Below, in pieces: positions 20,397 to 30,679 of a stretch of DNA of 64,000 nucleotides. The translations under genes were made by a program, and so were the position numbers. The notes beneath the pieces are model-generated. The model saw only the letters and a program-made list of their open reading frames with translations, searched no databases and had not been told where the DNA came from. Position 1 is the stretch's first letter. Every line of letters starts with the position of its first letter. Source of the DNA: Mucilaginibacter mali (GTDB taxonomy: Bacteria > Bacteroidota > Bacteroidia > Sphingobacteriales > Sphingobacteriaceae); assembly GCF_013283875.1 (NCBI RefSeq), contig NZ_CP054139.1, forward strand, positions 5,580,001 to 5,644,000. The letters run 5' to 3'.

Positions 20397-21047
20397 TTAT
20401 ACCACCGCATAGCCTACCCATTCCCCATGATGCGATAAAGAAACCATTGCACCAGTATTCTTTCCCTTAGCGGTAATGAACGGATAACCGGAAGAGCTTT
20501 TTTCTACGCTATAATTTTTGTTGTAAGACAGTAAAGGATCTGCCAGCAAGAATTGGCGAACTGCGGATGATTGCGTTTGCGGATCGGTGGTATCGATACG
20601 TTTTATACCCCAATGGATATTCCTGAGATCAGGATTAAACGAAGCTACGGTATGCAACACTTCATCACCATAAATTATTGAGCGGGAGTAAAGCGTTTGA
20701 TTTTGAAAAGAGATCGTCGCCCTGAAGCTGGCGTCATCATCAAAGCCGGTACTGACAATATTTACAGGAATGGCAGGTGAGGCTTTGACGGGTGTGTCTA
20801 AGCTAATAACAACCGTTTTAACAGGAGAGAAAACCAGATCGGGCTGCAATCTTTGCAGGCATTTGTACGCCGCCTCCTTAACCGACCATAACAGCCATAC
20901 AAATTGTTCAAGCGGGATATGGCTGAGATTAGCGTAGTATAATTGCTGTTCTGTTTCGGCTAATATTTTTTTGTAGAACCGCGGGTTACGGGTACGGGCA
21001 GTATCAATAGTATTTAAAGCAATAATATCGTTGCCGATGCTGTTCAT
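20397..21047 (-). CDS. 4'-phosphopantetheinyl transferase superfamily protein
   Basis: 216 residues starting MNSIGNDIIALNTID. The Mg-binding pair is visible in GNDIIAL and in WLLWSVKEAAYKCLQRL (the WxxKEAxxK signature). It transfers phosphopantetheine from CoA to the Ser of carrier proteins. The start ATG overlaps the stop of the ACP gene (TGATG), so it is translated together with its probable substrate and likely also primes the second ACP at 30416. It is the last gene of the five-gene minus arm of the dialkylresorcinol-type locus. Confidence 0.88.
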   Translation of the reverse strand: MNSIGNDIIALNTIDTARTRNPRFYKKILAETEQQLYYANLSHIPLEQFVWLLWSVKEAAYKCLQRLQPDLVFSPVKTVVISLDTPVKASPAIPVNIVSTGFDDDASFRATISFQNQTLYSRSIIYGDEVLHTVASFNPDLRNIHWGIKRIDTTDPQTQSSAVRQFLLADPLLSYNKNYSVEKSSSGYPFITAKGKNTGAMVSLSHHGEWVGYAVV

Positions 21048-21298
21048 CAGGCATTTAAACGCTCGGCAATCACATCGATACAACTGCCTACGTTTATCAT
21101 TTTTTCGGCATCGTCATAATCAATTTCCACGTTGTATTTTTCTTCAGCGTCGATAATAATATCTACCAGGTTAGCCGAATTAATCTTCAGGTCCTTTATC
21201 AGGTCGGTGTTTTCGTTTATGCCGGCCAGTTGTTCTTTATCAAGGGTATAAGGTGCCAGTATTTTTTTTAGTTCGTCTAAAATTTCTGCTCTGTTCAT
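21047..21298 (-). CDS. Acyl carrier protein, minus arm of dar-type locus
   Basis: 83 residues of ACP length and acidity. The phosphopantetheine site is the Ser of KDLKINSANLVDIIIDAE; the usual DSL is NSA here, which marks it as a specialised pathway ACP and not the FabB/FabF housekeeping one. It lies 3 bp from the ketosynthase gene and overlaps the phosphopantetheinyl transferase gene. It probably carries the growing acyl chain made by the three neighbouring enzymes. Confidence 0.9.
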   Translation of the reverse strand: MNRAEILDELKKILAPYTLDKEQLAGINENTDLIKDLKINSANLVDIIIDAEEKYNVEIDYDDAEKMINVGSCIDVIAERLNA

Positions 21299-21301
21299 TT
21301 G

Positions 21302-22570
21302 TTATTTATATTTTGAAAATATTAAACAGCTGTTAACATCTCCAAATCCAAAATTAGCCTTTGCTAATATATTAATATCTTTCTTAATCGTTGTTAATGG
21401 TATACAATCCTCAGCTATCAATTGTGTTATCCCGGGGTTCGGATCTTCGAGGTTGATATTTGGGTGGGCAAAGTTATGCTTTATTTGCAATATCGCCGCC
21501 ACCGATTCTATCGACCCTGCCGCGCTCAAACAATGCCCTATCATTGATTTTAGGGAATTGATAAGTGGAAAATCCTTGCCGTTACGCCCTAAAGCCGTCG
21601 CCCAGTTCTGTACTTCCTGCTTATCGGCCATGGTAGCGGTTAAATGCCCGCTTACCAAATCTATATCATCCCGATGAATACCAGATGAAATTACCGCATC
21701 ATCAATGCATTTTATTACTCCCGCAGGGTTTGGGGCCGTCATGCTGCCGCCGCCTCGCTGCCCGCCGCTGTTGCTGCTGCCGCCTAAAACCTCGGCGTAA
21801 ATGGTGGCGCCGCGTTCAAGGGCCATATCCAGGTCTTCCAGTATCAAAGCCCCCGAACCCGATCCCGGCACAAAGCCACCGGCAGTAGCGCTCATGGGAC
21901 GCGACGCTTTTTCGGGCGCGTCATTAAATTTGCGCGAAAGCACCCGCATACTGTCGAAAGCGCCATAAACGTATGGGTCAACATATTCGCTGCTGCCCAC
22001 CAGCATACGGTTGGCCTGGCCTTGTTTTATGTATTGATAGCCCATTAAAATAGCCTGCGTACCCGTTGCGCAAGCCACCGAGTTGGTAGTGATCATATTG
22101 CCCAAACCCAACCGGCCGGCTATATAGCTGGTCACCCCGCTGTTCATGGCCTGCTCTACCACCCGCGATCCCAGTTTGCGGGCCTCTCTATTATCTACCC
22201 GGATGATCACGTTCTTCATAGCCTCGGTATCGGCCACGCTGTTACCGAAGATGCAGCCCGTATCCCAGCGCGGTTCGTCGGTATCGTAAGGCAAACCGGC
22301 ATCGGCCCAGGCATCAAGTGCGGCAGTTATCCCGTAGCCAATATTAGTGCCTTTTAACCCGTGAAAGGTAACTTCGGATATGTATTTCTTCAAGCTATCC
22401 CATTCAAAATCGGGCACTCCGGCCACCTGGCAACTAAAGTTAAGTTCCTGGTATAGCGGCACAAATTTCACGCCCGAAATGCCGTTCTGTATCGCATTAA
22501 GGAACGCAGGCACCCCAACGCCGTTTGGCGATACCACCCCTATACCGGTAACAACTACGCGCCTGCTCAT
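21302..22570 (-). CDS. Beta-ketoacyl-ACP synthase (FabF/KAS II-like)
   Basis: A 422-residue thiolase-fold condensing enzyme. The active Cys lies in NSVACATGTQAIL. The first His is in SGHLTATMADKQE (diverged from the usual HGT motif) and the second in SMIGHCLSAAGS. GFGDVNSCLIF closes the fold. It elongates ACP-bound acyl chains with malonyl-ACP. Its start overlaps the dehydratase stop by four bases (ATGA). Together with the neighbours it forms a dedicated short fatty acid synthase that may supply beta-ketoacyl or acyl substrates to DarB (inference). Confidence 0.9.
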   Translation of the reverse strand: MSRRVVVTGIGVVSPNGVGVPAFLNAIQNGISGVKFVPLYQELNFSCQVAGVPDFEWDSLKKYISEVTFHGLKGTNIGYGITAALDAWADAGLPYDTDEPRWDTGCIFGNSVADTEAMKNVIIRVDNREARKLGSRVVEQAMNSGVTSYIAGRLGLGNMITTNSVACATGTQAILMGYQYIKQGQANRMLVGSSEYVDPYVYGAFDSMRVLSRKFNDAPEKASRPMSATAGGFVPGSGSGALILEDLDMALERGATIYAEVLGGSSNSGGQRGGGSMTAPNPAGVIKCIDDAVISSGIHRDDIDLVSGHLTATMADKQEVQNWATALGRNGKDFPLINSLKSMIGHCLSAAGSIESVAAILQIKHNFAHPNINLEDPNPGITQLIAEDCIPLTTIKKDINILAKANFGFGDVNSCLIFSKYK

Positions 22571-23031
22571 TTTTTAAAACCGTCTACATGCTTAATTATT
22601 CCGCTGAACATACCCCGCGCTACCAGCTCGCCGGTTTCATCCAGCAGTTCTACATAGCACTTCAGCTTACCAAAACGGAAGTACTGCTTTTTTGATACCA
22701 CCGTTACCTTTTGCCCTGGCAGCACCATTTTAAAGAACGATACATCGGTTGAGGTTAATAACGGGAACAAGTCGCTCTCATCGCCCAAATCCAAATTAGC
22801 ATCCTTCAATATCAAAAATATACCCATTACCACCAGGCCTATCTGCGCCATAATTTCGGTAATGATCACGCCCGGCGTTACCGGGTTGCCGGCAAAATGA
22901 TCTTCGTAAAAAAAGGCGTCTTCCTTCAACGTAAAATCGCCGATCACTTCATCCTCCGTCAGGCGGGATATATTATCTACAAAACGGAAAGACGATTTAT
23001 AGGGCAGATGGTTTAATATACTGTTCTTCAT
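22567..23031 (-). CDS. 3-hydroxyacyl-ACP dehydratase (FabZ/FabA-like hotdog)
   Basis: A 154-residue single hotdog domain. The catalytic His lies in YEDHFAGNPVTPG and the Glu in VIITEIMAQIG, matching FabZ. It dehydrates 3-hydroxyacyl-ACP to the enoyl form. It is translationally coupled to the ketosynthase. No ketoreductase is present in the locus, so that step would be borrowed from primary metabolism (inference). Confidence 0.88.
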   Translation of the reverse strand: MKNSILNHLPYKSSFRFVDNISRLTEDEVIGDFTLKEDAFFYEDHFAGNPVTPGVIITEIMAQIGLVVMGIFLILKDANLDLGDESDLFPLLTSTDVSFFKMVLPGQKVTVVSKKQYFRFGKLKCYVELLDETGELVARGMFSGIIKHVDGFKK

Positions 23032-23045
23032 TCGGTTTCGTAAAA

Positions 23046-23846
23046 TTACCGGCAGTGTTCGCCGCCGTCAACGTGTATCAGGCTGCCGTTTATCCAGGCG
23101 GCCTCGTCGGTACATAATAAATAAATTACCCCGGCTACGTCGCGCGGTTCGGTCATGCGTTGTAAGGGGTTGCGGGTTTGGGCTATCTCTACCAGTTTTT
23201 CGCTACCCGGTATTCTTTGCAGGGCGGCCGTATTGGTAATACCAGCCTGTATCAAATTAGTTTTGATACCAAAAGGCGCGAACTCCACTGCCATATAGGT
23301 AACCAAACTTTGCAGCGATGCTTTGGCAATGGCAACCGCGGCATAGGCATCCCAATGCTTATCGGCACCCTCGCTGGTAAGGCCGATAATACGGGCATCA
23401 GCATGAAATAAGCCGGCGTCGAGCAGGTCGCGTGTCCAATCGAGCAGGCTGTTGCTCATGGCGTAGCTGGTGAGTTGGATATCCTCGGTAGTTAACAGGG
23501 CTTCATTCTTTTGGGTTGATACCAGGGGTTTCAGGTTACCACGGGCAACCGAATGCATCAGCAGTTTTACCTTACCTTTTTTATCGGCAACAAAATCGGT
23601 CATAAAGCTTTGGCGCGATGCGGCATCCAATACATTAAGGTTAAAGGGTAATACCTCAACGCCGTTTTTGGCGGCTACTTCAACCAATGTGGCAACCGTT
23701 TTTTTGGCCATGGCTGATGGCTCGCGGTACAACACGGCAATATTCATCCCGTGCGCTGCCAGCTTTTCAACGGCGGCAAAACCAAAGCCGCTTGATCCGC
23801 CCAGTATTACTGCCCATAAGCCCGAAAAAGGTAAGTGTTTATCCAC
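23046..23846 (-). CDS. SDR-family enoyl-ACP reductase (FabI/FabL-like), GTG start
   Basis: A 266-residue short-chain dehydrogenase. The nucleotide motif is GGSSGFGFA. The catalytic Tyr and Lys are spaced YxxxxxxK (YAAVAIAK), the spacing of FabI/FabL enoyl reductases rather than the YxxxK of ketoreductases, and DGGEHC-type residues close the fold. GTG at 23846 is the only reasonable start, because no ATG occurs between the upstream stop and the Rossmann strand. It is the first gene of the minus arm, 15 bp before the dehydratase. Confidence 0.85.
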   Translation of the reverse strand: MDKHLPFSGLWAVILGGSSGFGFAAVEKLAAHGMNIAVLYREPSAMAKKTVATLVEVAAKNGVEVLPFNLNVLDAASRQSFMTDFVADKKGKVKLLMHSVARGNLKPLVSTQKNEALLTTEDIQLTSYAMSNSLLDWTRDLLDAGLFHADARIIGLTSEGADKHWDAYAAVAIAKASLQSLVTYMAVEFAPFGIKTNLIQAGITNTAALQRIPGSEKLVEIAQTRNPLQRMTEPRDVAGVIYLLCTDEAAWINGSLIHVDGGEHCR

Positions 23847-23895
23847 CCGGTAGCTGTTTTTGTATGTCTGATAGACTTATCCCTACATAATTATT

Positions 23896-23930
23896 GGAGG
23901 TATCGGGGGTTTGAATCCCTTCCTCTCCAC
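23896..23930 (+). other. tRNA-Ser-like 3'-end fragment (possible attachment-site scar)
   Basis: The segment reads as a T-arm (GGGGG, loop TTTGAAT, CCCTT) followed by an acceptor strand CCTCTCC and A, with a short variable-arm-like GGAGGTATC before it. The 5' half (a GGAGAGG acceptor strand, D-arm and anticodon arm) is absent upstream. It lies in the 280-bp gap between the two divergent arms of the dar-type locus. Confidence 0.5.
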
Positions 23931-24111
23931 TATTTTTAAAAGTATATGTTGGGCTCAGTCGTTTTAAACCTTATCAATTAAATACCCTCAAAATAAACAA
24001 AATTAATTGAATACCCGGGGTAAATATATTTCAGGATATTAAATCAATTATGCGGGCTTATTGTTTTAGGCTTGGTGTTTTTATCCCCGAAAAAGAACCG
24101 GGGAATTTTAT

Positions 24112-24119
24112 TATGTTTG
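24112..24119 (+). promoter_or_regulatory. -7 promoter box for the plus arm of the dar-type locus
   Basis: TATGTTTG matches TAnnTTTG and ends 7 bp before the ATG at 24127, so the transcript would begin at or very near the start codon. A CCCCG/CGGGG inverted repeat (24085-24103) sits directly upstream where a -33 element is missing and could be an operator. Confidence 0.55.
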
Positions 24120-24126
24120 ATCGCTT

Positions 24127-24612
24127 ATGAAAATGAAGATAGTTTGCAAGATAACTTTCGTAATGCTTTTCCTGTTGACCGTCAGCAGCAGTTATCAACG
24201 CGCATTAGCGCAAAAACTGGATAAAAACACGTTCTATGCCGTCATGACATCGGGCAAGCCGGAGGATATCGAAAAAGAATTATCTATACTAACCGAAGAG
24301 CAGCAGGCTTACGCGGGCGCCTTACTGATCCGCAAAGCTGGCTTGCCTAAAGTAAAAGAGCGTTTAAAGTTATTTAAAGCTGGCAAAGCCAAACTGGAAA
24401 CCGCCTTAGCCGCCGAACCTGATAATACCGAATACCATTTCCTCCGTTTAACTATACAGGAGCATTCGCCTAAAATAGTAAAATACAAAGCCGATATCCC
24501 CGCCGATAAGGCATTCGTAATTAAGCATTTTGATAAGCTTTCGCCAGTAGTTCAGCACGCGGTGAAGGAGTATGCCAAGGAATCAAAAGTGATAAAACCC
24601 GAAGAATTATAA
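24127..24612 (+). CDS. Secreted hypothetical protein, first gene of the dar plus arm
   Basis: 161 residues with a signal peptide (ITFVMLFLLTVSSSYQRALAQ). The mature part is helical and Lys/Glu-rich (KAGLPKVKERLKLFKAGKAK, LAAEPDNTEYHFLRLTIQEH), like a short TPR-type protein. The family is not recognised. It is 12 bp before darA and presumably co-transcribed. A periplasmic accessory role in handling or transport of the lipid product is possible but unproven. Confidence 0.7.
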   Translation: MKMKIVCKITFVMLFLLTVSSSYQRALAQKLDKNTFYAVMTSGKPEDIEKELSILTEEQQAYAGALLIRKAGLPKVKERLKLFKAGKAKLETALAAEPDNTEYHFLRLTIQEHSPKIVKYKADIPADKAFVIKHFDKLSPVVQHAVKEYAKESKVIKPEEL

Positions 24613-24624
24613 TTTTATACCCGA

Positions 24625-25524
24625 ATGAGTAAAAAGGTTTTAGCTATCTACTATACCCAATCGGGGCAGATGACGGATATCATCAGCAACTTTACCGCGC
24701 CGTTAATTGCCGGTGGGGTAGATGTAGATATTGTTTTGGTGCAACCCGTGGTTAATTACGATTTCCCCTGGACCGGCAGCCGTTTCTTCAGCGTTATGCC
24801 CGATTGCCAGTTAGGCGTGCCTACCGAATTGCAACCATTTGAATTAAAGCACAATGCTTACGACCTGGTGATCCTGGGTTATCAGCCCTGGTTCCTGTCG
24901 CCAAGTATCCCGTCAAACTCTATCATCCAGCACCCTAAATTCAGGGCGGTGGTGAAAGACACGCCGGTGGTCACCATATCTGCCGGGCGCAACATGTGGC
25001 TTAATGCTTTTGATAAGATAAAACAGTTACTGGCCGATGCGGGCGCCAAATTTGTAGGCAACGTAGCACTGGTAGATAATAACCCCAATTTTGTTAGTTT
25101 CATCACCATTTTTTACTGGATGCTTACAGGTAAGAAGGAACGCTACCTTAATATCTTCCCTAAACCGGGCGTATCCGAAGAAGATATTAAGCACACCAGC
25201 GTTTATGGCGAGGTGCTTTTGCAGCACTTAAACAACGGCGACTGGGACACTTTACAGCAGGAAATGGTTGATAAAGGCGCGGTGCGTGTTAAGTATCCGC
25301 TGATGGTAATTGAGGGCAAAGCCGGCGTTATATTTAAGGCCTGGGCAAAATTTATTTCAAAACGCAAAAACAAAATGCCCTGGATAACAGCTTATAAGTA
25401 TTATCTTTTTATAGCGTTGTTTTTAGGTGCGCCCATACTGCTTACTTTAGATGCGATATTTTTGCGGCCATTTACGCAAAAAAGCATCCGTGCAAAAAAA
25501 CAGCACTACTTATTGTTAAACTAA
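24625..25524 (+). CDS. darA: DarA-like dialkylresorcinol biosynthesis protein
   Basis: 299 residues. The N-terminus IYYTQSGQMTDII is flavodoxin-like, and the segment FPWTGSRFFSVMPDCQLG and a hydrophobic C-terminal helix (FIALFLGAPILL) are as I recall for proteins named dialkylresorcinol condensing enzyme DarA. In dialkylresorcinol systems DarA acts after DarB and has been linked to aromatisation of the 1,3-cyclohexanedione, which suits a flavodoxin-like fold. The exact role is from memory and less certain than the family. It sits 15 bp before darB. The C-terminal helix suggests membrane association. Confidence 0.82.
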   Translation: MSKKVLAIYYTQSGQMTDIISNFTAPLIAGGVDVDIVLVQPVVNYDFPWTGSRFFSVMPDCQLGVPTELQPFELKHNAYDLVILGYQPWFLSPSIPSNSIIQHPKFRAVVKDTPVVTISAGRNMWLNAFDKIKQLLADAGAKFVGNVALVDNNPNFVSFITIFYWMLTGKKERYLNIFPKPGVSEEDIKHTSVYGEVLLQHLNNGDWDTLQQEMVDKGAVRVKYPLMVIEGKAGVIFKAWAKFISKRKNKMPWITAYKYYLFIALFLGAPILLTLDAIFLRPFTQKSIRAKKQHYLLLN

Positions 25525-25539
25525 AACTGATCGAAATAT

Positions 25540-26688
25540 ATGTCTGCCAACCCGGTTTATATTGTTAATACCTCGGCCTATTTCCCCAACCAACCCGTTA
25601 GTAACGACGAGATGGAGGAATACCTGGGCTATATTAACGGCAAACCATCAAAATCTAAAAAGATAGTATTGCGTAACAACGCCATCACCAACCGCTATTA
25701 CGCGTTGCAGAAAGGCGGTAAGTCGACCCATACCAATGCCCAGATGACCGCACTGGCCGTACGCGAATTATTTGATAACGACCCCGAAAAATTAAAAGAT
25801 ATTGAATTGCTAAGCTGCGGCACCTCATCTCCCGACCAAATGATGCCCAGCCACGGGGTGATGACCCACGGCTGGCTGCCCGAAGCTGGCGGCATAGAGG
25901 TAGTATCGCCTGCAGGTGTTTGCTGCGCCGGTATGCACGCGTTGAAATTTGCTTACCTGGCCATTAAAGCCGGCGAGGTGAATACCGCTGTGGCTACCGG
26001 TTCAGAAAGGTTTTCGGGCCTGCTGGTATCTGATGTATTTGAAGAGGAAGCCCACAAACTGGTAGAACTGAACGAGAACCCGTACATCGCGTTCTCGAAA
26101 GAGTTTTTACGCTGGATGTTATCTGACGGTGCTTCGGCATTTTTACTGTCGGATAAACCCAATGAAGAGGGCTTAAGCCTGCGCATTGAGTGGATAGAAG
26201 GCGTATCCTATGCCGACCGGATGGAACCCTGCATGTACATGGGATCTGAAAAGGAAGCTGACGGCACCTTTAAAGGCTTTATGGATTATACGCCCGAAGA
26301 GATCATGAACAAATCTATCTTCAGCGTAAAACAGGATATCAGCTTGCTAAGCGATAACATCGTTCCGTTGGGTGGGCAAAAAATTAAAGAGATATTCGAG
26401 AAAAAAGGTTTGACCGTTAATGATATCGACCACTTTTTACCGCATATCTCCAGCAATTTCTTCCGCGGTAAGATATACGATATGATAGAAGAATACGGCG
26501 GCGGCATCCCTTACGAAAAATGGTTTATTAACCTTTATACCGTAGGCAACGTTGGCGCGGCATCCATCTATTTAATGATCAACGAGATGTTCCACAGCGG
26601 TAAATTGAAGAAAGGTGAGAAGTTATTGCTGCTGGTGCCGGAAAGTTCGCGGTTTAGCTATATGTATGCGATGTTGACGGTGGTGTAG
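25540..26688 (+). CDS. darB: DarB-like ketosynthase (KAS III fold)
   Basis: A 382-residue FabH-like enzyme. The active Cys lies in PAGVCCAGMHALKF, the His in HFLPHISSNFF and the Asn in YTVGNVGAASIY, completing the Cys-His-Asn triad. It is longer than FabH and has the N-terminal segment typical of DarB. DarB joins two acyl thioesters, one a beta-keto form, to give a 2,5-dialkylcyclohexane-1,3-dione, the precursor of dialkylresorcinols. With DarA and a dedicated fatty acid arm this identifies the locus. Palindromic repeats follow its stop. Confidence 0.88.
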   Translation: MSANPVYIVNTSAYFPNQPVSNDEMEEYLGYINGKPSKSKKIVLRNNAITNRYYALQKGGKSTHTNAQMTALAVRELFDNDPEKLKDIELLSCGTSSPDQMMPSHGVMTHGWLPEAGGIEVVSPAGVCCAGMHALKFAYLAIKAGEVNTAVATGSERFSGLLVSDVFEEEAHKLVELNENPYIAFSKEFLRWMLSDGASAFLLSDKPNEEGLSLRIEWIEGVSYADRMEPCMYMGSEKEADGTFKGFMDYTPEEIMNKSIFSVKQDISLLSDNIVPLGGQKIKEIFEKKGLTVNDIDHFLPHISSNFFRGKIYDMIEEYGGGIPYEKWFINLYTVGNVGAASIYLMINEMFHSGKLKKGEKLLLLVPESSRFSYMYAMLTVV

Positions 26689-26708
26689 AGCACCTTGCAA
26701 ACGGGGGG

Positions 26709-26844
26709 ACTCACCCGGTCGTGGCTACGCCCGACCACCCTCTCTTCGCTGCGCGAAAAGAGGGGCTGGGTTACCGATACTGCTCCTGCCCTCTTTCCGC
26801 GCAGCGAAGAGAGGGCCGACCAGCGAAGCGTAGTCGGGGTGAGT
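26709..26844 (+). repeat. Palindromic repeat, family 2 copy a
   Basis: The inverted ends ACTCACCCGGTCG..CGACCACCCTCTCTTCG and CGAAGAGAGGGCCGACC..GTCGGGGTGAGT enclose a variable loop of about 30 bp. It lies inside the dar plus arm between darB and the XRE-like gene. Other copies are at 42729, 43405, 47366 and 63727. Confidence 0.85.
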
Positions 26845-26870
26845 AAGACGGGCGATAAGCACACCCGAAA

Positions 26871-26948
26871 GCCTCACCTAAATCCTCTCCAGAGGAGAGG
26901 ACTTCAGAAGCTTTATAACCCTCTCCTCTGGAGAGGGAAGGGTGAGGC
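26871..26948 (+). repeat. Palindromic repeat, family 3 copy a
   Basis: GCCTCACC at the left and GGTGAGGC at the right frame two hairpins, CCTCTCCAGAGGAGAGG and CCCTCTCCTCTGGAGAGGG. It follows the family 2 repeat by 26 bp and could form a terminator-like or mRNA-stabilising fold within the operon. Confidence 0.8.
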
Positions 26949-26972
26949 CTTTACATATTGAAAAGAATTAAA

Positions 26973-27380
26973 ATGAAAAAAGAGAACGTACCACAAGACC
27001 TTAGCGCGTTGGCCAAGATCACCAAAGAGGTGTGCTATGCTACCGACGAGAGCGGGCAGTACGTTACGCAGTTAAGCAGCGGCTGGGATGTAAAAATAAG
27101 CGCGCTGGATGCGGCCTGGCAGGATATAGACGGCCGCGTGGCACAGGCCAGGCAGCAGGTAATTGACGGCAAAGCCAGCCCTATTTTATTTTTTATGGAA
27201 TACCGCCTGATGGATATTAAACTGCTGGCCCAGTATACCGGCTTTTGGCAATGGCAGATCAAACGCCATCTTAAGCCTGATGTATTTAATGAATTATCTG
27301 AAAAAAAATTAACGCTATACGCCGAAGCTTTTAACGTAAGCATCGCCGACCTGAAAACCCTCACCGTGCATGAAAATTGA
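26973..27380 (+). CDS. Small XRE-like HTH protein in dar-type locus
   Basis: 135 residues from the ATG at 26973 (an upstream TTG at 26958 is less likely). The C-terminal half resembles an XRE-type helix-turn-helix (LLAQYTGFWQWQIKRHL, then LTLYAEAFNVSIADLKTL). The N-terminal half (DESGQYVTQLSSGWDVK) is not recognised. It overlaps the BtrH-like gene by 11 bases, so the two are coupled. It may regulate the locus or, because the recognition helix is poorly basic, act as a protein partner. Confidence 0.7.
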   Translation: MKKENVPQDLSALAKITKEVCYATDESGQYVTQLSSGWDVKISALDAAWQDIDGRVAQARQQVIDGKASPILFFMEYRLMDIKLLAQYTGFWQWQIKRHLKPDVFNELSEKKLTLYAEAFNVSIADLKTLTVHEN

Positions 27381-28386
27381 TCTAGAACACCGGCAATCGG
27401 CACATTGCGAATCGGGGGTTACCAGTAGTTTATTATGGGAAGCATCAAAAGGTAAAATTACCGAACCGCTGGCTTTTGGCATTGGCGCGGGTTTGTTTTA
27501 CGCTTATATCCCCTTCATCAGCATTAATAATGGCCCGGCCATAGCGTTCCGTACCATGCCCGGCTGGATCTTCGGCCGTACCTGTCGTTCGCTGGATATC
27601 CCGGTCATCCGAAAAAAATTCAGTTCGCGCGAAAAGGCCGAAACTTACCTGATGGAGCAGCTAAATGCCGGTCAGCCCGTAGGTTGCCAGGTAGGGGTTT
27701 ATTATCTCAGCTATTTCCCTAAAGAATACCGCTTCCATTTCAACGCACATAACCTGATCGTTTACGGTAAGGAGGGTGATAACTATTTGATCAGCGACCC
27801 GATCATGGAGACACCCACCACCCTAACCAGCTACGAATTGGAGCGGGTGCGCTTTGCCAAAGGGGCTTTAGCGCCAAAAGGGCAGGTGTATTACACCAAA
27901 TACAATGGCGAGATAACCGACGGCCGCATCCGCGAAGCGATAAAAAGCGGCATCAAACGTAATGTGTTCAATATGTTGAGCATACCCGGTCCATTCGCGG
28001 GGGTTAAAGGCATCCGTTTCACCGGGAATAAAATAAAAGGCTGGCGCGATAAGCTGGGTTTAGAGAAAGCCAAACTGTATTTGGCGCAACTGGTGCGCAT
28101 GCAGGAAGAAATTGGTACCGGTGGCGGCGGATTTCGCTATATTTATGCCGCATTTTTACAGCAGGCCCACGCCTATTTGCCACAGGACGAATTGTTAGAG
28201 ATATCTAAACTATTTACACTTGCAGGCGATAAATGGCGCACAGCGGCGGTACACGCGGCCGGCATTTATAAAGGCCGTATTGGCAGCCAGGCCGATTTTG
28301 ATACCATGGGCAACTATTTGCTGGAAATTGCCGAATTAGAAAGAGAAGCTTTTATAGCTTTGAAGAACATTAAATGGTTAACGTAA
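27370..28386 (+). CDS. BtrH N-terminal domain protein (acyl-ACP acyltransferase-like, DUF4872 C-terminus)
   Basis: 338 residues. The papain-like BtrH domain covers about 1-150: catalytic Cys in AHCESGVTSSLLW, His in FHFNAHNLIVYG and Asp in LISDPIM. The helical C-terminal half (GGGGFRYIYAAFLQQA) fits DUF4872. Butirosin BtrH moves an acyl group from an ACP to an amine, so here a transfer of an ACP-bound acyl chain onto an alcohol or amine acceptor is plausible (inference). It overlaps the preceding and following genes by 11-13 bases, and an ACP gene ends the same operon. Confidence 0.82.
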   Translation: MKIDLEHRQSAHCESGVTSSLLWEASKGKITEPLAFGIGAGLFYAYIPFISINNGPAIAFRTMPGWIFGRTCRSLDIPVIRKKFSSREKAETYLMEQLNAGQPVGCQVGVYYLSYFPKEYRFHFNAHNLIVYGKEGDNYLISDPIMETPTTLTSYELERVRFAKGALAPKGQVYYTKYNGEITDGRIREAIKSGIKRNVFNMLSIPGPFAGVKGIRFTGNKIKGWRDKLGLEKAKLYLAQLVRMQEEIGTGGGGFRYIYAAFLQQAHAYLPQDELLEISKLFTLAGDKWRTAAVHAAGIYKGRIGSQADFDTMGNYLLEIAELEREAFIALKNIKWLT

Positions 28387-29135
28387 CTTACCCGGCTGTC
28401 GATATCCAGAACCTCAGTTTCCAATACCCGGGGAACGGGGAGCCATCTTTTACTCATTTAAATTTAAAGATCGCTAAAGGCGACAGGTTCGGTTTGTTCG
28501 GCCCCAACGGCGCGGGCAAAACCACGCTAATGAATTTAATGACCGGCCTGCTGAAACCCAGCGAGGGCAGCATCGCTTTGGCGGGCGTAAAAGTTGGCCG
28601 TCATAAATACCGCGTGAACCGCTTGTTCGGTTTTATACCGCAGGATTTTTCTTTTTACCAGGAACTAAGCCCTGCCGAGAATTTGGAATTTTTCGGCGCC
28701 TGGTATGGCCTGAGCCGTAACAAGATCAAACAAAAGACCGACGAGTTGCTGAACATTATGGGCCTGGAAGATGTGCGCGATAAGCAGGTACAGCAATTTA
28801 GCGGCGGGATGAAACGTAGAGTCAACCTGGCCATTGGCGTTATCCACAATCCCGGTATTTTGTTTTTAGACGAACCTACCGTTGGGGTTGATGTGCAAAC
28901 GCGCCACGCCATCATCAATTACCTGATAGAGCTGAACAAAAGCGGCACTACGCTGATATACACCTCGCACCAGTTAAGTGAGGCCGAGGACCTTTGCAAC
29001 CAGGTAGCCCTGATGGATAACGGCCAGGTGATGGCGCAGGGATCGCTGGATGACCTGCTGGAAGAACATAAGCACCACGATCTGGAAGAACTATTCTTAA
29101 ATTTAACCGGTAAACATTTTAGGGATGATGTTTAA
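28374..29135 (+). CDS. ABC transporter ATP-binding protein
   Basis: A 253-residue ATPase. Walker A is GPNGAGKTTLM, the signature FSGGMKRRVNLA, Walker B ILFLDEPTVGV, and the H-loop is TSHQLSE. It belongs to the ABC-2/DrrA-type exporter class. It overlaps the BtrH gene by 13 bases and the permease gene by 11, so the three are made together. It likely powers export of the resorcinol-type lipid or an acylated product to the outer envelope. Confidence 0.93.
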   Translation: MVNVTYPAVDIQNLSFQYPGNGEPSFTHLNLKIAKGDRFGLFGPNGAGKTTLMNLMTGLLKPSEGSIALAGVKVGRHKYRVNRLFGFIPQDFSFYQELSPAENLEFFGAWYGLSRNKIKQKTDELLNIMGLEDVRDKQVQQFSGGMKRRVNLAIGVIHNPGILFLDEPTVGVDVQTRHAIINYLIELNKSGTTLIYTSHQLSEAEDLCNQVALMDNGQVMAQGSLDDLLEEHKHHDLEELFLNLTGKHFRDDV

Positions 29136-30408
29136 GCTTTGGGCCACCATAATAAAAGATGTGCGCATTTTGCTGCGCGATAAGGTGGGCATTCTGCTGA
29201 TGTTCATTATGCCCGTGGCGCTGGTAATTGTGGTCACCAGTATCCAGAACAGCACCTTTCAGTTCATGAATAAGAACAAGCTGCTGTTGCTGGTCAGCAA
29301 CAGGGATACCGGCAAGCTTAGCCCGCAGCTGATACAGGCCATTAATAATATCGGTATGTTCAAGGTGTCCGAACTGCCAAAAGGTACCGATAGCGCCGGC
29401 ATCAACACCAGGCTGCACAGCAAAGAAGCTGAACTGGCCATTATGATCCCTGCCGATTTTTCGGTTAAAGTAAGCGAACGGGCAAAAGCATCGGCCAATA
29501 AAGCATTAAAAAGTTTTGGGTTGGAGGGCGACTCGATAAAGGCTAATGCATCGGACACCAATCCTATCAGCATGTATTATAACCCGGTATTGCAGGAGCA
29601 ATTGCGCCTCTCGGTACAGGGTGCCCTGCGTAGCGCTTTGCAACTGGTAGAAAGCCGCGAAACCCTGGGCGACCTGTACATGTCCATTAATGATAAACCG
29701 CTGCCTCCTGCATTGGAAAAAGAGATGCTGAGCAGCAAGACCGTCATCAACCAGATACCCACCTCGCGTGGCAGCGACAGGCAGGTGCCCAACGCCACCC
29801 AGCATAACGTGCCGGCGTGGACCATCTTCGCCATGTTCTTCATTGTAATGAGTCTAGGCGGCAGCGTAGTGCGCGAAAAAGTGAGCGGCAGTTATATCCG
29901 GTTGAAGACCATGCCTACCAATTACTTAGTTGGGCTGGCATCAAAGCAGATCGTTTACCTGGGTGTAACTATGTTCCAGGCGCTGGTGATATTTACTATT
30001 GGCGTATGGCTGTTCCCGGTGATGGGCCTGCCCGCGCTGAATATCCCGCATGATGTTTTGGGGCTCATTGTAGTTACCCTGTTCACCGGGTGGTGCGCGG
30101 TAAGCTATGCTATATGCATTGGCGTATTTGCTAAAACACAGGAGCAGGCCAACGGCTTCGGGGCGGTATCTATTGTGATACTGGCGGCCATCGGCGGGCT
30201 AATGGTGCCCAGCTACGTAGTATCCGGGCCAATGAAAGCGCTGGTGAACTTTTCGCCGCTGCATTGGTGTATCGAAGCTTACTACGGCTTATTTTTAGAG
30301 GGCGGAAAATTTACCGATGTACTGGCAAACATTATACCTTTGATCGGCATTACCCTATTGCTGCAAGCCATAACGGTAATAGGCTTAAAACGAAAAAATT
30401 TAATATAA
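29125..30408 (+). CDS. ABC-2 type transporter permease
   Basis: 427 residues: an N-terminal helix (VGILLMFIMPVALVIVVTS), a large extracytoplasmic domain of about 200 residues, then five helices in the last 180 residues (TIFAMFFIVMSLGGSVV to LIGITLLLQAITVIG), the layout of ABC-2 exporters. It pairs with the ATPase encoded just upstream. The following ACP gene starts 7 bp later. Confidence 0.9.
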   Translation: MMFKLWATIIKDVRILLRDKVGILLMFIMPVALVIVVTSIQNSTFQFMNKNKLLLLVSNRDTGKLSPQLIQAINNIGMFKVSELPKGTDSAGINTRLHSKEAELAIMIPADFSVKVSERAKASANKALKSFGLEGDSIKANASDTNPISMYYNPVLQEQLRLSVQGALRSALQLVESRETLGDLYMSINDKPLPPALEKEMLSSKTVINQIPTSRGSDRQVPNATQHNVPAWTIFAMFFIVMSLGGSVVREKVSGSYIRLKTMPTNYLVGLASKQIVYLGVTMFQALVIFTIGVWLFPVMGLPALNIPHDVLGLIVVTLFTGWCAVSYAICIGVFAKTQEQANGFGAVSIVILAAIGGLMVPSYVVSGPMKALVNFSPLHWCIEAYYGLFLEGGKFTDVLANIIPLIGITLLLQAITVIGLKRKNLI

Positions 30409-30415
30409 TTACAGC

Positions 30416-30679
30416 ATGGAAAAAACAGAACTGAAGCAACAGCTAAAAGTCCAGATCATACAATTTTTAAACCTGACAGAATTAACCCCCGAGGATATTA
30501 AGGACGATGAACCGCTGTTTGGCGATGGTTTAGGTTTAGATTCTATCGACTCGCTGGAGCTGATCGTGCTGTTGAAAAAGGAATACGGCATTAATATCCA
30601 AGACCCTAAAGAAGGCCGCAAGATATTGGTGGATGTAAATACTATGGCCGATTATATTGAGGCTAACGGGAAGAAGTAG
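30416..30679 (+). CDS. Acyl carrier protein, plus arm of dar-type locus
   Basis: 87 residues with a classic phosphopantetheine site, LGLDSIDSLELIVLLKKE, and an acidic helix set. It ends the plus arm, next to the exporter. Some dar systems carry an ACP (DarC in the operons I recall), so this may be the DarB-dedicated carrier, while the ACP at 21047 serves chain elongation (inference). Confidence 0.9.
   Translation: MEKTELKQQLKVQIIQFLNLTELTPEDIKDDEPLFGDGLGLDSIDSLELIVLLKKEYGINIQDPKEGRKILVDVNTMADYIEANGKK

Follow-up and report, generated by a model that had tools for sequence, protein, structure and literature searches.

A dialkylresorcinol operon of Mucilaginibacter mali, probably one half of a flexirubin pathway split over the chromosome

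The dar locus and the closest described systems

Flexirubin is a well-known yellow-orange pigment of the Bacteroidota. The locus described here, at positions 20397-30679 of a 64,000-nucleotide stretch of the Mucilaginibacter mali chromosome (the window), very probably serves the resorcinol half of flexirubin synthesis, with the aryl-polyene genes located elsewhere on the same chromosome. The window is C1:5580001-5644000, C1 being the one contig of 6,044,097 bases that makes up the genome, which is given as 100% complete. Two described systems are closest. DarA and DarB of Chitinophaga pinensis produce a dialkylresorcinol (DAR) in E. coli, and in C. pinensis the layout is split, with darB/darA at Cpin_6850/6851 and flxA-flxY at Cpin_1853-1877 (PMC3992019). 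Azoarcus sp. BH72 has a dar operon, for arcuflavin, which is unlinked from its polyene genes (PMC3949708). Both dar and flx genes are also reported from Dyadobacter sp. HH091, which was positive in the KOH test (PMC9606717).

The likeness to C. pinensis lies in DarB with a DarA-like partner, in FlxA/FlxB/FlxY and in a chromosomal layout that keeps dar and polyene genes apart. The difference is that its 25-locus polyene cluster includes export-type genes flxP-flxU; no genes of this kind were seen next to the flx pieces here. The Azoarcus operon shares the order darA, darB, small protein, BtrH-like protein, ABC ATPase, ABC permease and acyl carrier protein (ACP), as well as the unlinked polyene genes. 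However, it differs in two small genes that separate the ATPase from the permease, in ketosynthase (KS) genes that follow the ACP, and in its polyene, which is xanthomonadin-like, with no FlxA; the published table has no enoyl-reductase arm (PMC3949708). The NCBI names DarG and DarH used below differ from the darG and darH of that Azoarcus paper. Both the split layout (C. pinensis) and the dar operon order (Azoarcus) are thus already published, and the locus is largely ordinary.

The locus consists of two divergent arms. Read outwards, the minus-strand arm runs from an enoyl-reductase-like short-chain dehydrogenase/reductase (SDR) through dehydratase, ketosynthase and ACP to a phosphopantetheinyl transferase (PPTase), and the plus-strand arm from a secreted-looking protein of 161 amino acids (aa) through DarA, DarB, DarG, DarH, ABC ATPase and ABC-2 permease to a second ACP:

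20397-21083, minus strand: 4'-phosphopantetheinyl transferase (PF01648, E 8.6e-10); the true start probably lies inside this open frame
21047-21298, minus strand: acyl carrier protein 1 (ACP1), serine motif NSANL; NCBIfam ACP models give 30-42 bits, below their cut-offs, and the Pfam cut-off is likewise missed
21302-22570, minus strand: FabF-like ketosynthase of the divergent arm (PF00109/PF02801; C167/H309/K341/H346)
22567-23031, minus strand: FabA/FabZ-like 3-hydroxyacyl-ACP dehydratase (PF07977, E 1.3e-12)
23046-23846, minus strand: FabL/FabI-like enoyl-ACP reductase of the SDR family (PF13561; Y168-x6-K175; best PDB match 3oic, an enoyl-ACP reductase)
24127-24612, plus strand: all-helical, secreted-looking 161-aa protein, first gene of the plus arm, conserved across DarB loci
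24625-25524, plus strand: DarA-like protein, presumed flavodoxin-like DAR aromatase, by position and conservation beside DarB
25540-26688, plus strand: DarB, DAR-forming ketosynthase/cyclase (NF053539, 627 bits, cut-off 550; StlD 5gk0, E 3.8e-101)
26958-27380, plus strand: DarG in the NCBIfam sense, not darG of Azoarcus (NF053545, 193 bits, cut-off 170)
27370-28386, plus strand: DarH, BtrH-like acyltransferase (PF14399, 153.8 bits, cut-off 29.7; PF16169; NF053550, 440 bits, cut-off 300; C13/H127/D143)
28374-29135, plus strand: ABC transporter ATPase (PF00005)
29125-30408, plus strand: ABC-2 type permease (PF12698)
30416-30679, plus strand: acyl carrier protein 2 (ACP2), serine motif DSIDSLE (PF00550; NF006617, 71.8 against a cut-off of 70, barely above)

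These frames include every gene named in the preliminary description, which was made from the window alone and left DarG and the 161-aa protein unnamed; its dialkylresorcinol-type reading, and its idea of an acylated and possibly exported product, both stand. The GC content of the locus (0.472) is close to that of the window (0.479). A Bacteroidota promoter pattern matched once in the window, against 2.8 matches expected, and nowhere between the two arms.

In all, 216 DarB relatives were confirmed, and gene order was compared in the loci of the best 80 of these, each count covering those whose sequence extends far enough on the side concerned. DarA lies beside DarB in 76/76 loci and the 161-aa protein is present in 75/76; DarG and DarH were each found in 64/64, the ABC pair in 58/64 and the last ACP in 59/64. 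The gene set is not a chance assembly. The closest DarB relatives are from Mucilaginibacter, at 79-86% identity. When the window flanks were compared with 83 loci, Mrp and mtgA beside dar were common only to one (L143, genome G011). The 161-aa protein has a confidently predicted helical structure, with a predicted local distance difference test (pLDDT) score of 91; no family model matched it, and its structural model had no PDB match at E ≤ 0.001. NCBI models exist under the names flexirubin DarG, FlxA, FlxB and FlxY, and also DarH; it is the flexirubin-named DarG model that DarG matches here.

Aryl-polyene genes on the chromosome and in relatives

No flx gene lies inside the locus, where the gap between ACP2 and the next gene (30870) is just 190 bases. 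The preliminary description had noted this absence, correctly for this stretch, and had proposed a product other than flexirubin for want of aryl-polyene genes, naming beforehand a genome search for such genes as the check that could overturn it. That search, when run, placed FlxA and FlxB 624 kb and FlxY 199 kb from the dar locus on the same chromosome, so the proposal falls. The flx genes found were:

within C1:4968122-4976004: FlxA, tyrosine ammonia-lyase (NF053541, 857 bits, cut-off 700)
within C1:4968122-4976004: FlxB, ketoreductase (NF053542, 377 bits, cut-off 340)
within C1:4968122-4976004: two FabF-like KS, one chain-length-factor (CLF)-like protein, a conserved protein of 209 aa and two dehydratase-like proteins
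C1:5398258-5399547: FlxY, ligase (NF053551, 664 bits, cut-off 520)

FlxY forms a trio with AcpS and an esterase-like gene (C1:5398258-5401357), and in relatives this trio adjoins FlxA. The own-genome searches found aromatic lyases at two places and the KS C-terminal domain at six. The other ammonia-lyase, at 3898091, scored 293 bits on the FlxA model, below the cut-off of 700, and was set aside. Two of the KS places were likewise rejected on reading by eye: a FabF next to an ACP gene (4605743), and a KS whose neighbours are glycosyltransferase-like and acyltransferase-like, with no flx gene seen (5244396).

In relatives, the flx block lies directly behind ACP2, in convergent orientation. Among loci with at least 9.5 kb of downstream sequence it was found there in 34/59 overall and in 26/29 of Mucilaginibacter type, counted within identity limits that we set ourselves, more distant copies being left uncounted. 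The Mucilaginibacter-type block comprises 41 loci (L014-L052, L066 and L069), grouped by rank, a few of which carry other or unnamed taxon labels. In L056, for example, FlxA sits just past the end of the locus.

The genus as a whole shows the same association. Across 120 Mucilaginibacter genomes, scores above the cut-off were reached by FlxA in 69, by DarB in 60 and by DarH in 61; the dehydratase of the arm was present in 62. Of the 96 genomes classed as good, 45 have all four of FlxA, DarB, DarH and the divergent arm, and 42 have none of the four; FlxA occurs alone in seven, and one (G005) has DarH and, where a contig ends, a partial DarB. The remaining genome, G089, has FlxA and the arm as well as broken forms of DarB and DarH: its dar operon, with the broken genes, lies at G089:C1:2687956-2690502, and its FlxA and arm dehydratase are full length. 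We read G089 as a natural loss of the resorcinol half. Where both proteins are full length (55 genomes), FlxA and DarB lie within 13 kb of each other in 31 and 13-50 kb apart in nine; they are farther apart on one contig in three, M. mali being the farthest with 631 kb between match starts, and on different contigs in 12, many of them draft assemblies. Because linkage is the common state in the genus, the split in M. mali is probably derived.

These counts also bear on whether the locus could be a stand-alone pathway, independent of aryl polyenes, for a dialkylresorcinol or cyclohexanedione that is free or acylated in some other way and might be a signal. DarA and DarB alone do give free DARs in E. 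coli (PMC3992019), and the operon encodes an exporter and ACPs of its own. However, the genome holds FlxA, FlxB and FlxY, the operon includes DarH and the DarG of the flexirubin-named model, and none of the 45 good genomes of the genus with full-length DarB lacks FlxA. A stand-alone pathway is therefore highly improbable, and was dropped once FlxA, FlxB and FlxY had been found in the genome.

The genomes with FlxA alone are of interest in their own right, and four of the seven were read, with a family scan in one of the four. These large Mucilaginibacter genomes (G013, G071, G117 and G017; loci L138-L141) carry FlxA without DarB in a different cluster, which contains a fusion of MMPL, acyltransferase and methyltransferase parts, an AAT-type acyltransferase, a family 2 glycosyltransferase and a halogenase-like protein, and also KS, ACP and a lipid-A-type acyltransferase. 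This cluster may join an aryl polyene to a non-resorcinol partner. The seven genomes may be one lineage, and hence not independent.

Ester formation and alkyl-chain supply

Taking the dar locus as the resorcinol half of flexirubin synthesis, we propose the following route. PPTase would first load the ACPs. The arm ketosynthase, dehydratase and enoyl reductase would then build alkyl acyl-ACPs, helped by a ketoreductase encoded outside the locus, FlxB or FabG; among the products would be the 3-ketoacyl and 2-enoyl thioesters that DarB is expected to use. DarB would condense and cyclise these and DarA would aromatise the ring to DAR, roles assigned here by homology. In parallel, FlxA, FlxY and FlxB, together with the polyene KS, CLF and dehydratases, all 199-624 kb away, are predicted by homology to make the aryl-polyene acid. 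DarH would form the ester, taking the aryl-polyenoyl group off a carrier protein (perhaps ACP2) and placing it on a hydroxyl of the DAR, and the ABC-2 exporter would move the pigment outward.

DarH is likely to be the enzyme joining polyene and resorcinol, because its modelled structure has the fold of the carrier-protein-dependent acyltransferases CtaG and CcbD, together with their Cys-His-Asp triad. The AlphaFold2 model (mean pLDDT 78.9, predicted template modelling score 0.78, residues 111-123 weak) matches AziU2-U3, CtaG and CcbD almost end to end (Foldseek E 1.3e-9 to 2e-5). It superposes on them with Z 19.5-22.6 and 3.5-4.1 Å over 290-303 residues, and for CtaG (closthioamide) and CcbD (celesticetin) the full-length fold is shared at Z 19.5-22.2. 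The next matches cover the C39-like part alone, with Z ≤ 13.7. The DarH sequence itself found nothing in the PDB at E ≤ 1, and identity to CtaG and CcbD is 10-12%. Among 25 DarH sequences, C13 is kept in 23, H127 in 25 and D143 in 25. The corresponding residues of CtaG are C11/H128/D144, the His-to-Asp step is 16 residues in both proteins, and PDB titles list the CtaG variants C11A, H128A and D144N. CtaG forms amides and would hand hydroxybenzoate over from its carrier protein to a chain borne by a second one (PMC6772006). CcbD also forms amides, whereas DarH would form a phenol ester; its proposed transfer onto a resorcinol hydroxyl would be the counterpart of the CtaG step.

In the divergent arm, the Y-x6-K enoyl-reductase spacing of the SDR is kept in 50/50 aligned sequences and the C, H, K and H of the ketosynthase in 47/47. 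Against the curated FabL equivalog the SDR scores 138 bits, below the cut-off of 328, and is thus enoyl-reductase-like and not classed as FabL. Since this SDR has Y-x6-K and FlxB has Y-x3-K spacing, the arm is without a ketoreductase, as the preliminary description had said of this stretch; the genome as a whole does have one in FlxB, and the step could be taken by FlxB or FabG. The arm is present in 43/65 DarB loci and in 28/33 of Mucilaginibacter type, and lies elsewhere in the same genome in L066. In the good Mucilaginibacter genomes it accompanies full DarB in 45/45 and FlxA alone in 0/7. Because the arm tracks DarB and not FlxA in the genus, it probably supplies the alkyl side of the resorcinol.

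Alternatively, the arm might serve the polyene, or the whole pathway. Polyene synthesis, too, uses functions of the KS, dehydratase, ACP and PPTase types, and the arm occurs with FlxA in 46/46 good genomes. Set against this, it includes an enoyl reductase, for which a polyene has no use, and it is absent from the seven good genomes with FlxA alone (although these, maybe one lineage, have their own KS, ACP and acyltransferase in the four read). We consider this alternative unlikely. The full proposal, in which DarH is the flexirubin ester synthase (aryl-polyenoyl, ACP to phenol) and the arm a dedicated fatty-acid cycle giving DarB both its 3-ketoacyl and its 2-enoyl partner, is advanced tentatively, as plausible and a little short of probable. 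A dedicated supply of DarB partners would explain why the arm follows DarB, not FlxA, in the genus. We make no claim that either assignment is new to the literature.

The nearest solved structure to DarB, over the full length, is StlD (5gk0), which acts in stilbene formation. The same family was also seen on Bacteroidales plasmids, where a StlD/DarB-family gene lies right behind a helix-turn-helix or TetR regulator gene:

L135, NZ_CP103211.1 11406-13131: plasmid StlD/DarB-family locus
L137, NZ_CP072340.1 14355-16125: plasmid StlD/DarB-family locus
NC_015165.1: probably a further such plasmid

No darA or BtrH gene is annotated near these plasmid genes, in a plasmid gene table that is incomplete. 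Gene and regulator might supply a cyclohexanedione signal and the receptor for it, both carried on the plasmid.

The split, the insert behind darB and the meaning of the locus

Transposase copies lie close to both flx pieces. Identical proteins of 511 aa are encoded about 8 kb from the FlxA piece (L012:10827-12362 = C1:4983827-4985362) and 0.7 kb from the FlxY trio (L120:12089-13624 = C1:5402088-5403623), and the DNA around the copies is identical over 1215 bases, up to the first mismatch at each end. Of this repeat, 48 25-mers were sampled, and all were absent from the window. Rearrangement via these copies is possible.

A second feature of the locus is an insert of 269 bases between darB and darG (26689-26957), made of two palindromic repeat units, with a predicted RNA fold of -152 kcal/mol. 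Similar copies lie in the window at about 34.5, 42.7, 43.4, 47.4 and 63.8 kb, and elsewhere in the genome. In 33 relatives the darB-darG gap has a median of 20 bases (range 2-409). An 88-aa open frame at 26695-26961 is probably spurious.

The split and the folded insert could mean that the pathway is decaying and that no pigment is made. Consistent with decay, the pathway is in three separate pieces, the insert stands where relatives have a short gap, and DarB and DarH are broken in the relative G089. However, every frame is open and the catalytic residues are kept, and C. pinensis, likewise split, makes pigment (PMC3992019). Decay is therefore quite improbable.

Several observations do weigh against the flexirubin assignment and its parts. 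The pathway genes are in far-apart pieces, and the insert might lower expression of the genes from DarG to ACP2. No flx gene was within reach in 25/59 of the wider loci at the identity limits used. Full DarB without full FlxA was seen in five of all 120 genomes, each of the five being less than 90% complete and two having a partial FlxA. The DarA-like protein matched none of the family models scanned, and showed a weak match to the flavoprotein 4ici (E 0.021). With respect to export, the flx pieces are not accompanied by the gene set that the C. pinensis cluster has for it, LolA not having been searched for. The MMPL model matches 10 places in the genome, with RND-pump-like open frames of 999-1137 aa, and the genome has no relative of the MMPL-acyltransferase-methyltransferase protein (1284 aa) of the other FlxA clusters; export therefore differs or is by the ABC-2 transporter. 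Two of the 25 DarH frames are shorter and lack the C13-bearing part, and the C. pinensis authors propose the ligase-like FlxW, not the BtrH-like protein, for the ester (PMC3992019). Finally, the arm is not adjacent to DarB in 22/65 loci, so it is not required by all such pathways.

The flexirubin pigment pathway serves as a taxonomic marker. At the scale of the window the locus hinted at a new pathway; the context of the whole genome and of relatives shows a known one cut up. Co-occurrence and the DarH fold yield two testable assignments within it, ester formation and alkyl-chain supply.

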